Part shown: positions 73-8,885 of the stretch, in pieces
Position numbering within the stretch: the first letter of the stretch is position 1
Layout of the letters: every line of letters starts with the position of its first letter
Virus record (IMG/VR): IMGVR_UViG_3300027816_000272
Span: 1 to 32,891 of that record
Origin: a virus
Length of the DNA stretch: 32,891 nucleotides
Reading direction: 5' to 3' (one strand)
Made by a program: the position numbers and the translations under genes
The notes under the pieces: model-generated
What the model was told of the DNA's origin: nothing
The model's input: only the letters and a program-made list of their open reading frames with translations
Databases searched by the model: none

Positions 73-723
73 TTAAAGTTTTCGTAGGAAGTTTTCGAAG
101 AGTTGTAATCCGACAGATTCAACATCTCTGCGTGATGCTTTACGAATTTGCTGTTTAGCATGGTCGATATGTGACTCGACAAACTTACCTTCTACGAACA
201 TCCATTCTTTGTTTTCCATGATGCCTTGAACAAAAGCACCTGGAGCAGAAGGGTCAGCAACAATATCAGCAGCAGTTGCAAGACGCAGGTCATCTTGTAC
301 TAGATTATAACCTTCTTTTGTCATTACGACAGAACCCAAAGCACGTGATGAAACACCAAGACCGACACCAGACTCAATAAGATTCTTAGCAATCAAACCA
401 TATGGTGTTTCCATGATGAGTGCTTTACCGACAAATGTATTACCGTTCTCTACCAAACTTGTAATCTTATGCGACACACGTTCTAGATTCAGTGATGGTG
501 TGTCTGGATGTCCCAGTTCACCAAGCGCACGATTTGTGTTGATGTACTCTTCGGTATATCGTTCAACTTCATTACGAAGTGTATCCATTTTGTACATACG
601 ATTGTTACGGTTGACTGCATCGCCAACTAGAAATATGCCTTCAATGTACAGATTCTTTTTACCGTCTTCTGTTTTTTCGGTAAGATATCTTACATTTTCA
701 ATGTGTTCTTTAATAAGTTTCAT
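73..723 (-). CDS. gp21: Prohead core maturation protease (T4 gp21 family)
   Basis: A 216-residue protein, close to T4 gp21 (about 212 aa). This serine protease sits in the prohead core and cleaves scaffold and shell proteins at (L/I)-x-E sites during head maturation. Family marks are the ELGHP segment (His72), VSHKI (His85) and GVSSRA (Ser125/126), the likely catalytic His and Ser regions. Which His is catalytic cannot be fixed by eye. The N-terminal half has the usual EGIFLVGDAVNRNNRMY-type strand pattern. The start ATG overlaps the preceding stop as TAATG and has AGGAG about ten bases upstream, suggesting translational coupling. Position between gp68-like and gp22 matches T4. Confidence 0.93.
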   Translation of the reverse strand: MKLIKEHIENVRYLTEKTEDGKKNLYIEGIFLVGDAVNRNNRMYKMDTLRNEVERYTEEYINTNRALGELGHPDTPSLNLERVSHKITSLVENGNTFVGKALIMETPYGLIAKNLIESGVGLGVSSRALGSVVMTKEGYNLVQDDLRLATAADIVADPSAPGAFVQGIMENKEWMFVEGKFVESHIDHAKQQIRKASRRDVESVGLQLFENFLRKL

Positions 724-2384: not shown

Positions 2385-4052
2385 TTATCTGCGTCTATTA
2401 TTTATACTGACAACCGATTTACTTACTTCGTCATCTAAACCAGGTGTTAATGACTCTTCTTCTTCGGTATTTTCTACCGTATTGTCTTCTGGTTCTGCTT
2501 GAGGTTCAGCACCCTGTGGTGGTCCACCTAATGCGGGACCTTGCATGTCATCGGGCAATGTGTCTTTTTCTTTTTGTATTGCTGCTTGCATTGCTTCAAT
2601 CTCTTCATCCGTCATCATGAGAATCTTATTCATCACATAATTATTGGAGAAGTAACGACCAACAAATGGATCAACTAGGCTTACCATTTGTAATCTATTC
2701 TGTAGCAATTCTGCTTCACGCAGTTCGGTAAAGTTATTGTCTTTACGGAAGTCGTAGTAAACATCTTCTTTGAACTTATCCCATTCTTCACGTGTACAAA
2801 TGCCCTTCAGTACCAATTGTACTTTGAGTGCTTCATCAAACACTTGTGAGAACTTATTACGCAGACGAACAACAAACTTGGCAAACTTCAGTTCATCACG
2901 TGTAACTTCTTGTGAACGACCAAGACCTGCTAAACCACCTTCTTGTGATTCAAGTCTTGAATATGGTACGTTTAAAGATTGTAAAAGTTTCTTTTGGAAA
3001 TATTTTACATCTTCTAGTTCGCCCAAGTTTTGACCAGCAGGCAGTGTGGTAATTTCTGTACCTTTACCACCTTCACGGCGTGGTAGCCAGAAGTCTTCAA
3101 GCATTGACATATGCTTACGTTCATCACGGATCTCACCTGTGTTGGCATCGTAAACTAATTTGTTACGGTACTTGATCATGATGTCACGCAGATATTGCTC
3201 TGCTTTACCACGTGGCAAGTTACCAACGTCGATGTAGAAAATACGGCGTTCTGGCGCTCTTGAAATACGGTAAATAACAATCGCATCTTCAATCATACGT
3301 AACTGATTGAGTGGCTTGATTGCTTTGTGTAGATACGAAATAACAAATGTATTCTTAGCATCCATCAAACCAGAGTTCACATTAATGATAGCGTCTGGTG
3401 CAATACGAATGCCTTGACCTACGTTTGATGTAAATGTCTGTGTCGTGGTACCACGATCATTATAGACATAGTATTCAGCAACCGATACGACGATCATTGC
3501 TCCAGTTTTTGGATCACGATCTTTTTTAATCTCACGCACTTTACGAATCTTGCGTGGATCAATGTATCTAAGTTCTTGAATACCTTCTTTAGGATTTTTA
3601 TCGTTAACTACGATATGATAAAAAACACGACCATCAATATACCAACGTTTGAAAACATCATCAGCCAAATTACTAAAGTTCAACATCTTTAATACATTGT
3701 TGAACTCTTCGATAATTTTCTTCTTGATTGTTTCAGGCTGCTTCAGATTGTCAAGAACGATGTCAACAACCTTACCTTGATCATCATGTGTGATGGCTTC
3801 ATTGACGATTTCATCAATTGCCATTTGACACTCTGGGTGATTTGACATCTCACGATAACGTGTAATAAGTTCTATTTCGTTGCGAACAGAACCTTCAAGA
3901 TCAACGTATGTACCGTAATACGCATTTTGCGTAACGGTAACAGCACCATCATCTATGGTTGCGGAAGGCAAAGCAAAGGATGCCTGTTCGGGCTTTTCAG
4001 CCTTGACGACATCCTTTGAGCCTATTGTAAAGCCAAAAAGTTTAATTGCCAT
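2385..4052 (-). CDS. gp20: Portal vertex protein gp20
   Basis: A 555-residue protein (T4 gp20 is 524 aa). It forms the dodecameric portal ring that starts head assembly and through which DNA is packaged. Recognisable gp20 features include the N-terminal ITRYREMSNHPECQMAIDEI region, the DDVFKRWYIDGRVFYH strand, ELRYIDPRKIRKVREI, the RAPERRIFYIDVGNLP segment, and a long helical C-terminal half with LNVPYSRL and QEVTRDELKFAKF. The last 70 residues are acidic and Pro-rich, then end in Arg. It begins after a hairpin terminator that follows gp19. The ribosome binding site is AGGATG. Confidence 0.97.
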   Translation of the reverse strand: MAIKLFGFTIGSKDVVKAEKPEQASFALPSATIDDGAVTVTQNAYYGTYVDLEGSVRNEIELITRYREMSNHPECQMAIDEIVNEAITHDDQGKVVDIVLDNLKQPETIKKKIIEEFNNVLKMLNFSNLADDVFKRWYIDGRVFYHIVVNDKNPKEGIQELRYIDPRKIRKVREIKKDRDPKTGAMIVVSVAEYYVYNDRGTTTQTFTSNVGQGIRIAPDAIINVNSGLMDAKNTFVISYLHKAIKPLNQLRMIEDAIVIYRISRAPERRIFYIDVGNLPRGKAEQYLRDIMIKYRNKLVYDANTGEIRDERKHMSMLEDFWLPRREGGKGTEITTLPAGQNLGELEDVKYFQKKLLQSLNVPYSRLESQEGGLAGLGRSQEVTRDELKFAKFVVRLRNKFSQVFDEALKVQLVLKGICTREEWDKFKEDVYYDFRKDNNFTELREAELLQNRLQMVSLVDPFVGRYFSNNYVMNKILMMTDEEIEAMQAAIQKEKDTLPDDMQGPALGGPPQGAEPQAEPEDNTVENTEEEESLTPGLDDEVSKSVVSINNRRR

Positions 4053-6409: not shown

Positions 6410-8041
6410 TTACAAACTTGATGATAAATAGCCAGCTGGTGGCTCCCACATGTCCCCATCTTCCACTTCCATTTCTCTACGAAGTCCGTCTTCAATAAAG
6501 CCAAAAGGCAGCATACTTTCTTCTCCTAACATGTTCTGCTCTTCTAGCATGATCTTGCGGATGTCGATTCTTGTCTCATCTTTGAAGAATGTCTGTGCCG
6601 TCAGCCAGGCATAAAGCACTAGCCCCATTACAATATCGTCGTTATTGCCTTCTTCGGCAGCATACGTGTCTCTTGTCCGAACAAAGGTGTTCAGTTCTGC
6701 GATGGTATCGAAGTCGTTGATAATGAGTTTGTCGTTCTCAATCAGCGTTTTCAAGTTAGCACAGCCAATTTTCTTGACTGATTTGGTTGTCTTTACACCA
6801 AAAGCCACTGAGCGTTTAAAGCCAGCAGAAATGCTCTGACCTTTGATATGATGATGCTCTAGCTTATAGATGTTTTCATATTCCAGATCATAATGTAGAA
6901 TATCTACGACTTGCTGACCAACATTGTTGGTTTCAATCAGTACATAAGCCTGGTTGTAACGATTGGCTAAAGCATACACCACTGTTGGAAAGAACAATAG
7001 CGGCAGCTTATTATTCCGATATCGTGCGACTTGTTTATAAGGAGCTTCTGTAGCATCCAAAACATTGATCGTATGATAATCTAGACCTACGCCCTCAGCA
7101 CAGTCTACTGTGGCAATGTAAATGCGTCCTGGGCGTGGATCTTCATATACAAATAGATTGCCGTCATCTTCAATACGGGTTGGGTCATAGAACGCCAATG
7201 AACGGAGTTTGGAACCAGAAATCAGTGTCGCTGAAGAACCAATAAACTCTGTCTCAAATTCTTGTCGGAATTGTTCTTCAGAAGTGTTTCGTATCGTTTC
7301 TTCTTTCCACTTCTCATCACGACCTGGCACCATTGACCAGTGAATCTCAAGTGTTTTGTATGTTGAACGATTTTCAATCGCATCTGTCCACATCTTATAA
7401 AACAGATTCAGACCGTTCGGAGTAGAAACAATAATTACTTTTGAACTTTTACCAGATGAGATAACAGGATAAGTAGAAGTAAAAAAGTCTACTGCCATGT
7501 TGTGTGGCACAAAAGCAAATTCGTCAAGAAAGATTAGATTATATGAACCACCACGAACACCCGCTGCTGATGTAGCGTAAGCATAAATCTTTGAACCATT
7601 TTCTAATTCAATCGAACGTTTGTTCCAGTTGATAATACCTTGTTGAAGCCATGAAGGTAAATACTCATAGGCTTTTTGTATCTTAGCAAGAATGTCTTGA
7701 GCAAGTTGGAGTTTGTTGGCAAGAATACCAATTACGAATTCTTCGTTGAACAATGCTGACCAAAGCATATACCCGACAGTTGTAGTTGTCTTACCAACCT
7801 GTCGTGGCATCTTTGCGATACAAAAACGATTGTCATGAAATGTACGAACCATGTCTTCTTGAAATGGCCACATCTCAAAAGGCACAAGACCTTTATCTAC
7901 GTTGACAATTTTGACATAGTTACGAATAAAGTACACCGGATCTTCGGTGCATTTTACAATCTCTTTTAATTGCTCTTCAGTGTAGGATATTTCAACACCG
8001 ACTCGTTTGAGCCGTGCATTACCAAGGTACCCGTCATCCAT
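6410..8041 (-). CDS. gp17: Terminase large subunit gp17 (packaging ATPase and nuclease)
   Basis: A 543-residue protein (T4 gp17 is 610 aa). It pumps DNA into the prohead through gp20 and cuts the concatemer. The ATPase domain shows Walker A PRQVGKTT at residues 79-86 and Walker B NLIFLDEFAF with Asp173/Glu174. The coupling motif is STPNG (206-210). The RNase H-like nuclease has ATVDCAEG (Asp313), VLIETNNVG (Glu370) and NNDDIVMG (Asp468/469), the three acidic positions of the T4 nuclease. All key residues are present, so it should be active. It starts three bases after the Dps-like gene, not directly after gp16 as in T4. Confidence 0.98.
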   Translation of the reverse strand: MDDGYLGNARLKRVGVEISYTEEQLKEIVKCTEDPVYFIRNYVKIVNVDKGLVPFEMWPFQEDMVRTFHDNRFCIAKMPRQVGKTTTTVGYMLWSALFNEEFVIGILANKLQLAQDILAKIQKAYEYLPSWLQQGIINWNKRSIELENGSKIYAYATSAAGVRGGSYNLIFLDEFAFVPHNMAVDFFTSTYPVISSGKSSKVIIVSTPNGLNLFYKMWTDAIENRSTYKTLEIHWSMVPGRDEKWKEETIRNTSEEQFRQEFETEFIGSSATLISGSKLRSLAFYDPTRIEDDGNLFVYEDPRPGRIYIATVDCAEGVGLDYHTINVLDATEAPYKQVARYRNNKLPLLFFPTVVYALANRYNQAYVLIETNNVGQQVVDILHYDLEYENIYKLEHHHIKGQSISAGFKRSVAFGVKTTKSVKKIGCANLKTLIENDKLIINDFDTIAELNTFVRTRDTYAAEEGNNDDIVMGLVLYAWLTAQTFFKDETRIDIRKIMLEEQNMLGEESMLPFGFIEDGLRREMEVEDGDMWEPPAGYLSSSL

Positions 8042-8044
8042 AAT

Positions 8045-8479
8045 TTATCGTGTAAAACTCTTCAGCATCCAACCATGTTTTTGATGAGCGTCTAGAATAT
8101 CTTGTAAGAAGTTACCTACAGCAGGTTCGTCAGCAGCGTCAGCAACAGCAATACCTGTACGAAGTTCCATGATAAATTTATCATTGTCAGCGGCAAGTTC
8201 AGACATCATTACGACTGGTGCAGGTATCGCTACGTTAAAAGTAATCTTGGACAATTCACTCATTCTTCCAAGAGTTGTTGGAGCATAAGAATTTAACGCA
8301 CGAATGTGTTCTGCGATTAGATCAGTTTGATCAAACACTGCCTCATAGAATGTACCAAGAAAACCATGATACTCAGCAAAGTTTGGACCTTCTACATTCC
8401 AATGATAGGTATGTGCTTTAAAGTACAAAGCAAAGTTCGTACCAAGAATAACCTTCATTTGTTCGATTAGTTGTTCCAT
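8045..8479 (-). CDS. dps: Dps-like ferritin (DNA-protecting iron-oxidising protein)
   Basis: A 144-residue four-helix-bundle protein of the Dps family, which forms 12-mers that oxidise and store iron and shield DNA from peroxide damage. The Dps ferroxidase pattern is present: His26 (YHWNVEG), His38 (AEYHGF), Asp53 and Glu57 (DLIAEHI). These match E. coli His51, His63, Asp78 and Glu82 in spacing. The position of E. coli Asp67 is Gly42. The basic N-terminal DNA-binding tail of E. coli Dps is absent. The gene is four bases from gp16 and three from gp17, with AAAGG upstream, so it should be a late gene co-expressed with packaging proteins. It is probably host-derived, though its base use looks like its neighbours. 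Confidence 0.9.
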   Translation of the reverse strand: MEQLIEQMKVILGTNFALYFKAHTYHWNVEGPNFAEYHGFLGTFYEAVFDQTDLIAEHIRALNSYAPTTLGRMSELSKITFNVAIPAPVVMMSELAADNDKFIMELRTGIAVADAADEPAVGNFLQDILDAHQKHGWMLKSFTR

Positions 8480-8483
8480 AATT

Positions 8484-8885
8484 TTATTTATTTCCTTTGA
8501 TCATTTTAAGTAATTCGGTAGTGGAGCCAACGAAGATTGCTTTATCGACGTTGACTCCTTTACTAGACTCCGACTGAGGTGCAAGCTCTTTTTTTCTTTT
8601 TTGTAACTCTAGTAAATCTTTATTCATCTCAGCCAGATTTTTCATCATTGTGGCTAAGACTTCATATGCTCTTGGTGACTCTGATTGATTCGCAACTGAA
8701 GCTAATTCAGTCAATGCTCGGTTACCATTATCAATCAATGAACGCATATTTGTACGAGCAAATTCAGCATCGGCATCAATTTGATTAGCACTATCATCTA
8801 TTACAACAGGCATTGTTTCGATTCGGCCTTCTTCAATAGGCTCAACATCAAAGATTTCAGATAAATTTTTATTCAGTTTTTTCAT
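8484..8885 (-). CDS. gp16: Terminase small subunit gp16
   Basis: A 133-residue mainly helical protein (T4 gp16 is 164 aa). It assembles into rings, recognises DNA ends or pac-like sites, and regulates the gp17 ATPase. The central coiled-coil-like stretch (RAYEVLATMMKNLAEMNKDLLELQKRKKEL, residues about 72-101) is the conserved core in T4-like phages. Its start overlaps the gp15 stop as ATGA. Identification rests on this core and on gene order gp15-gp16-(dps)-gp17. Confidence 0.88.
   Translation of the reverse strand: MKKLNKNLSEIFDVEPIEEGRIETMPVVIDDSANQIDADAEFARTNMRSLIDNGNRALTELASVANQSESPRAYEVLATMMKNLAEMNKDLLELQKRKKELAPQSESSKGVNVDKAIFVGSTTELLKMIKGNK

Follow-up and report, generated by a model that had tools for sequence, protein, structure and literature searches.

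Why would a T4-like phage carry a gene for a Dps-family mini-ferritin between the genes for its two terminase subunits? The question is posed by a 32,891-bp fragment of an uncultured virus (the window, here meaning the whole stretch of DNA analysed), which holds a T4-like head and tail gene cluster on its minus strand (Table 1). A sequence-only reading of the window had described a Dps-like gene lying between genes 16 and 17, with gaps of four and three bases, at a place where T4 has no gene. The gaps are indeed 4 nt toward gp16 and 3 nt toward gp17, and in T4 the two terminase genes overlap by 17 nt, with nothing between them. The answer that we favor, with a probability of about 0.58, is that the gene specifies an active, late mini-ferritin of a phage lineage, which would form a 12-mer, oxidize Fe(II), and protect DNA during packaging, and whose tie to head assembly is functional.

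Table 1. Positions of the dps gene, its ferroxidase codons, and neighboring head genes in the window
Feature	Positions	Strand	Support or remark
dps (P0001), phage Dps-family mini-ferritin, 144 aa, ATG start	8045..8479	-	Pfam, PHROG, AlphaFold, Foldseek
gp16, terminase small subunit, upstream neighbor of dps	8484..8885	-	PF11053 1.8e-10, PHROG 445 3.4e-33
gp17, terminase large subunit, downstream of dps	6410..8041	-	PF03237 1.3e-30, PF17289 6.6e-16, PHROG 2
4-nt gap and gp16 end, AAAGGAAATAAATAAAATT before dps ATG, weak ribosome-binding site	8480..8500	-	
gp20, portal protein, same head cluster	2385..4052	-	PF07230 5.3e-181
gp21, prohead protease	73..723	-	PF03420 Peptidase_S77 2.6e-35, PHROG 207
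His26 codon, ferroxidase site A ligand (E. coli His51)	8402..8404	-	invariant in 190 Dps
His38 codon, site B ligand (E. coli His63)	8366..8368	-	invariant in 190 Dps
Gly42 codon, acidic site-B position (E. coli Asp67)	8354..8356	-	Gly in relatives
Asp53 codon (E. coli Asp78)	8321..8323	-	invariant in 190 Dps
Glu57 codon (E. coli Glu82)	8309..8311	-	invariant in 190 Dps

The first line of evidence concerns the identity of the gene. Reading of the plus strand at this place is interrupted by stops, and the gene lies on the minus strand. Its product, P0001, matches the Pfam Ferritin family (PF00210; E=3.4e-19, 69.6 bits against a cut-off of 24.5), PHROG 3636 (7.6e-30), and solved Dps proteins in the PDB (best 3e-17); as judged from these alignments, the Dps assignment is far beyond chance. 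The AlphaFold model (pLDDT 97) shows the Dps pattern of four long helices (residues 2–28, 34–61, 88–115, and 119–141) and a short BC helix (residues 70–76), and the top Foldseek matches in the PDB are Dps proteins, with TM scores of 0.94–0.96 and an rmsd of about 1 Å. Taken by its sequence and its predicted structure, the ORF is a Dps-family mini-ferritin gene.

His26, His38, Asp53, and Glu57 had been singled out beforehand as ferroxidase residues. Together with Gly42 they align with E. coli Dps positions 51, 63, 78, 82, and 67, respectively, at a constant offset of 25, and the equivalents of the four are conserved without exception in 190/190 phage and bacterial Dps domains, including those linked to head proteins. 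In the single-chain model, the ligand positions are compatible with the intersubunit ferroxidase centre of a dodecamer. The canonical five-ligand centre is represented by the counterparts of His51, His63, Asp78, and Glu82, with Asp/Glu at 67 absent; because of Gly42, P0001 is not filed in the canonical five-ligand class. The earlier remark that Gly42 replaces Asp67 was correct, but the replacement is nothing special: this glycine is invariant across 42 close relatives of P0001, and among the 190 domains glycine is the commonest residue at position 67 in phage Dps and is present in some bacteria too, which rules it out as a distinguishing trait. In canonical Dps, acidic residue 67 contacts site B through water, and NpDps4 binds iron with Asn at this position (PMC6675082). 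Given the latter observation and the frequency of glycine in phage Dps, Gly42 does not predict a dead protein, although loss of the site-B acidic residue could alter the activity of P0001, whose centre would then combine an intact site A with a weakened site B. It is thus highly improbable that P0001 is a catalytically dead, Dps-shaped structural protein: Gly42 is in favor of such a reading, but the invariance of the four remaining ligands, head-linked domains included, and the iron binding of NpDps4 speak against it.

Other types of centre were also considered. The His-type centre of NpDps4 has a His at 78 and draws His164 from a third subunit (PMC6675082). In a sequence comparison with that description, P0001 has Asp53 at position 78, and Met138 appears to hold the position of His164, as in canonical Dps. 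The buried, bacterioferritin-type centre of DpsL, which is built on two E-x2-H motifs in helices B and D (PMC11150526), was ruled out, there being no ExxH in P0001 residues 34–61 or 119–141. His58 was dropped as a compensating ligand: close relatives and the cyanophage family have it without exception, but the wider group of terminase-slot proteins has H, K, E, or Q at this position.

The position of dps between the terminase subunits, along with the PHROG 3636 label of “DNA binding protein,” could be taken to mean that the protein coats or condenses the concatemer to help gp16 and gp17. However, P0001 has no basic tail at either end: in the AlphaFold model helix A begins at residue 2, in accord with what had been said of the N-terminus, and the helices from 2–28 to 119–141 fill the chain. 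The net charge is about -8 and the pI is 5.1. The lack of tails and the acidic pI speak against DNA condensation, and we consider a DNA-binding packaging factor very unlikely.

The second line of evidence is the constancy of the slot. At least 524 stretches in IMG/VR encode relatives of P0001. In the best 80, which were examined, the order gp13-14-15-16-dps-17-18 is kept as far as each contig reaches, and gp16-dps-gp17 is found in all those with both neighbors in view (75/75). The search for Dps beside gp17 that the sequence-only reading had suggested gave the same picture when gp17 was used to retrieve loci: of those that show both gp16 and gp17, 67/68 have dps between them, down to about 76% gp17 identity. 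The slot of dps is therefore fixed across a large clade of uncultured T4-like phages. In L028 and L032, two of the relatives, GAGGAAA stands near the dps ATG. At L384 (2440-2540), where gp17 is 78% identical, dps is cleanly absent and gp16 and gp17 are 3 nt apart, which indicates that the gene is dispensable in that slot. A dps gene in the terminase operon occurs in none of the isolated-phage Dps neighborhoods examined; in Mosig, HTVC008M, and S-PM2, the isolates closest by gp17, other genes fill the gp16-gp17 gap. Our search of the open-access literature turned up no earlier description of a terminase operon containing Dps.

In seven relatives (L006, L009, L012, L013, L031, L065, and L395), an ORF of ~190 aa is inserted between dps and gp17; by eye, the L009, L012, L031, and L395 sequences resemble a GIY-YIG homing endonuclease. 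Elsewhere (L076:3333-5900), gp17 is split: its two ORFs stand about 750 nt apart, which may reflect an intron or an inserted endonuclease. A 133-kb relative, G004 (L210/L211, L212), has 26 tRNA genes and a permuted tmRNA of betaproteobacterial type (L212:7160-7534; RF01850, 139 bits), a hint of a betaproteobacterial host.

The third line of evidence comes from the history of the gene. Median dN/dS is 0.11 for dps, compared with 0.10 for each of gp15 and gp16, and Dps distances correlate with gp17 distances (r=0.74; 0/500 permutations); on these sequence measures, dps is under purifying selection and evolves with its neighbors. A tree of 88 sequences unites 69 phage Dps (environmental sequences and that of S-SRM01) in a single branch with a support of 95, outside of which fall the bacterial Dps, chosen by similarity to P0001 and mostly from Alphaproteobacteria, and three other isolate Dps. 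A tree of P0001 against bacterial Dps had been proposed as a check, and it places the protein in a phage-dominated lineage distinct from them. The slot sequences fall into two groups in the free tree, and a single clade for all of them is consistent with the data (AU p=0.75). Recent capture from a host is not supported, as the best bacterial relatives in this mostly alphaproteobacterial sample are 36–38% identical and lie outside the phage branch. The gene would have descended vertically in an uncultured T4-like clade, where it belongs to the standard make-up of the terminase operon.

The fourth line of evidence comes from other phages, in which Dps is found among or within head proteins. A fold search of viral proteins returned Dps domains within proteins named prohead protease. 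In L416/L461, a single ORF has Dps at residues 18–157 followed by a Peptidase_S78 prohead protease (Pfam 7.5e-31), in the order large terminase, portal, Dps-protease ORF, major head protein. In L466, again with the portal on one side and the major head protein on the other, the Dps domain comes after a protease-like stretch, while L467 has a separate Dps between a portal and a protease. The latter locus also encodes, beside the portal and Dps, a prohead-protease-like domain fused to an Acb1 anti-CBASS domain (L467:3914-5599; PF23474, 5e-35), possibly a counter-defence protein wired into head assembly.

Analogously, in a T4-like clade (L468-L476) a Dps domain is part of a protein encoded between portal and gp21, the interval occupied by genes 67/68 in T4. 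Sister sequences (L477-L479) have an Asp/Glu run in place of the domain, and both flanks are alignable; a model of the L468-L476-type protein has a high-confidence Dps domain between flexible arms. In the window itself, the interval between portal and gp21 encodes, on the minus strand, a very basic 153-aa protein (1087-1548; pI 11.6) and an acidic 66-aa protein (2173-2373; pI 4.2), both possible prohead-core proteins. In a third T4-like group (L220, L284, and L285), dps lies directly before gp13. Neither fusion of Dps to a prohead protease nor its exchange for an acidic stretch in a post-portal protein, at the gp67/68 position, is described in the open-access literature that we searched.

How general such linkage is was assessed with further phage Dps sampled by a short motif. 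About 24% of the non-redundant sampled phage Dps (33/139) lie within 1.5 kb of recognized head, neck, or terminase genes, a lower bound given the limited detection of head genes; subject to the same limit, about three quarters have no recognizable head gene nearby. Portals number seven among the neighbors of sampled Dps and none among far control genes. A general assignment of phage Dps to the head genes was rejected, because many of the sampled genes sit in DNA-replication or nucleotidyltransferase neighborhoods. In five loci (L410, L418, L428, L429, and L448), Dps adjoins or is fused with DUF5824 or a PHROG 9737 motif directly after portal genes; PHROG 9737, of unknown function, has a Cys/Trp-containing motif, “CWDGYKQVGMK..VPNCVP.” The four head contexts together do not form one clade (AU p=0.03), which weakly rejects a single origin for all head-linked Dps; head linkage thus probably arose more than once. 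The pattern suggests that iron detoxification has been coupled to head assembly repeatedly among phages.

Phage Dps are already known and are mostly regarded as auxiliary stress genes. Applied to the window, this would make P0001 an ordinary cytoplasmic Dps that, in the infected cell, deals with host iron and with oxidative stress, and its place in the operon an accident of insertion into a unit transcribed late. The metabolic or DNA-replication neighborhoods of other phage Dps, the clean absence of dps from L384, and the same reading by authors working on gut and Lactobacillus phages (PMC8008677, PMC6669764) are in agreement with it. An accident does not, however, account for a slot fixed over a broad clade, nor for the separate recruitment of the domain to fusions with head proteins and to positions after the portal, and we regard this explanation as rather unlikely.

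Another possibility is that the mini-ferritin is enclosed in the prohead and either guards the packaged DNA or is released into the next host, like the internal proteins of T4. Head-protein fusions in other phages do position Dps inside or at the prohead, and by analogy with them packaging of P0001 into the virion is plausible. Moreover, mass spectrometry found the Dps of Privateer in purified virions (PMC7881722) and the Dps-family protein CDS67 of SU10 in virion preparations (PMC4281155), and a ferritin-like protein was reported in a Vi01-like phage (PMC10892097). The sequence-only reading had allowed that the protein might even be packaged, and the fusions together with the Privateer and SU10 proteomes put that idea on firmer ground. 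SU10 virion preparations also contain DNA polymerase, so a proteomic match may reflect carry-over. In T4, proteins are taken up into the core of the prohead, and some of these are injected (PMC9958956), which would give a packaged Dps a precedent in kind. Against these points, P0001 stands alone: it is fused to no head domain, and a capsid-targeting sequence is not convincingly present, the only such stretch being a weak match, “LIE,” at residues 4–6 inside helix A; moreover, gp16 and gp17 are not prohead-core proteins. A Dps 12-mer measures roughly 9 nm and could not follow DNA through the portal, so that it would need to be trapped early. A virion-internal location for P0001 is, on balance, unlikely.

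The favored reading, that of a late mini-ferritin acting during packaging, can be outlined as follows. The gene would be co-translated late with gp16 and gp17, a timing read from its place in the operon. P0001 would assemble into a hollow 12-mer and, through its intersubunit ferroxidase centre, would oxidize and store Fe(II) with peroxide or oxygen. Fenton reactants would thereby be removed around the phage DNA while it is packaged, presumably protecting it. Unrelated phages wire a Dps domain into head-building proteins, which suggests that the tie to head assembly serves a function and is not incidental.

A broader proposition, which we put forward tentatively and hold to be less probable than not, is that tailed phages have repeatedly made the mini-ferritin a head component, taken into the prohead or attached to it in the form of a stand-alone gene in the terminase operon, a fusion to the prohead protease, or a domain replacing a post-portal acidic run, and that the capsid is an iron-oxidizing compartment guarding the genome. 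Taken together, Dps in the terminase slot and Dps in head proteins point to oxidative protection as part of head assembly. They open the way to testing concretely whether phage DNA, once packaged or while it is being packaged, has to be shielded from iron and peroxide; phage biology has hardly addressed the matter.

Compared with known systems, P0001 is closest in fold to solved bacterial Dps (1n1q from Bacillus brevis, 8ff9 or PA0962 from P. aeruginosa, and 2d5k from S. aureus; TM 0.94–0.96), and it shares with bacterial Dps the short BC helix and the four ferroxidase ligands at dimer-interface positions. It differs from them in its sequence (about 36–38% identity at best), its phage lineage, its glycine at the site-B position, and its lack of a tail. 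Kuravirus-type podophages such as SU10 and Privateer also encode a Dps, but outside the head operon, the SU10 gene being a middle gene. In phage 7-11, a relative of these two, dps lies beside thymidylate synthase, and its product, unlike P0001, falls outside the main phage Dps lineage. The Dps of cyanophage S-SRM01 belongs to the same large lineage as P0001 and shares Gly42 at 31% identity, but its gene stands between those for a porin and a hypothetical protein, some 57 kb away from gp17. In the S-SRM01 record (MW015081.1, 128216-132177), the names of the terminase large subunit and the tail sheath appear to be swapped. The DPS proteins of gut “Gratiaviridae” (PMC8008677) and of Lactobacillus phages (PMC6669764) were proposed to limit oxidative damage; unlike for the window, the portions of these two reports available to us report no terminase or head linkage.

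The likeness to T4 67/68 belongs to the L468-L476 protein only and consists in its position between portal and gp21, its Dps-less sister L478 having matched no PHROG family; the window dps, unlike either, is located at gp16/gp17. Encapsulins, in which an HK97-fold shell encloses a ferritin-like protein, would be the cellular parallel of a Dps-loaded prohead. For P0001, the parallel is an analogy only; yet should the head-component proposition hold, a Dps-loaded capsid would be the viral counterpart of ferritin-loaded encapsulins.
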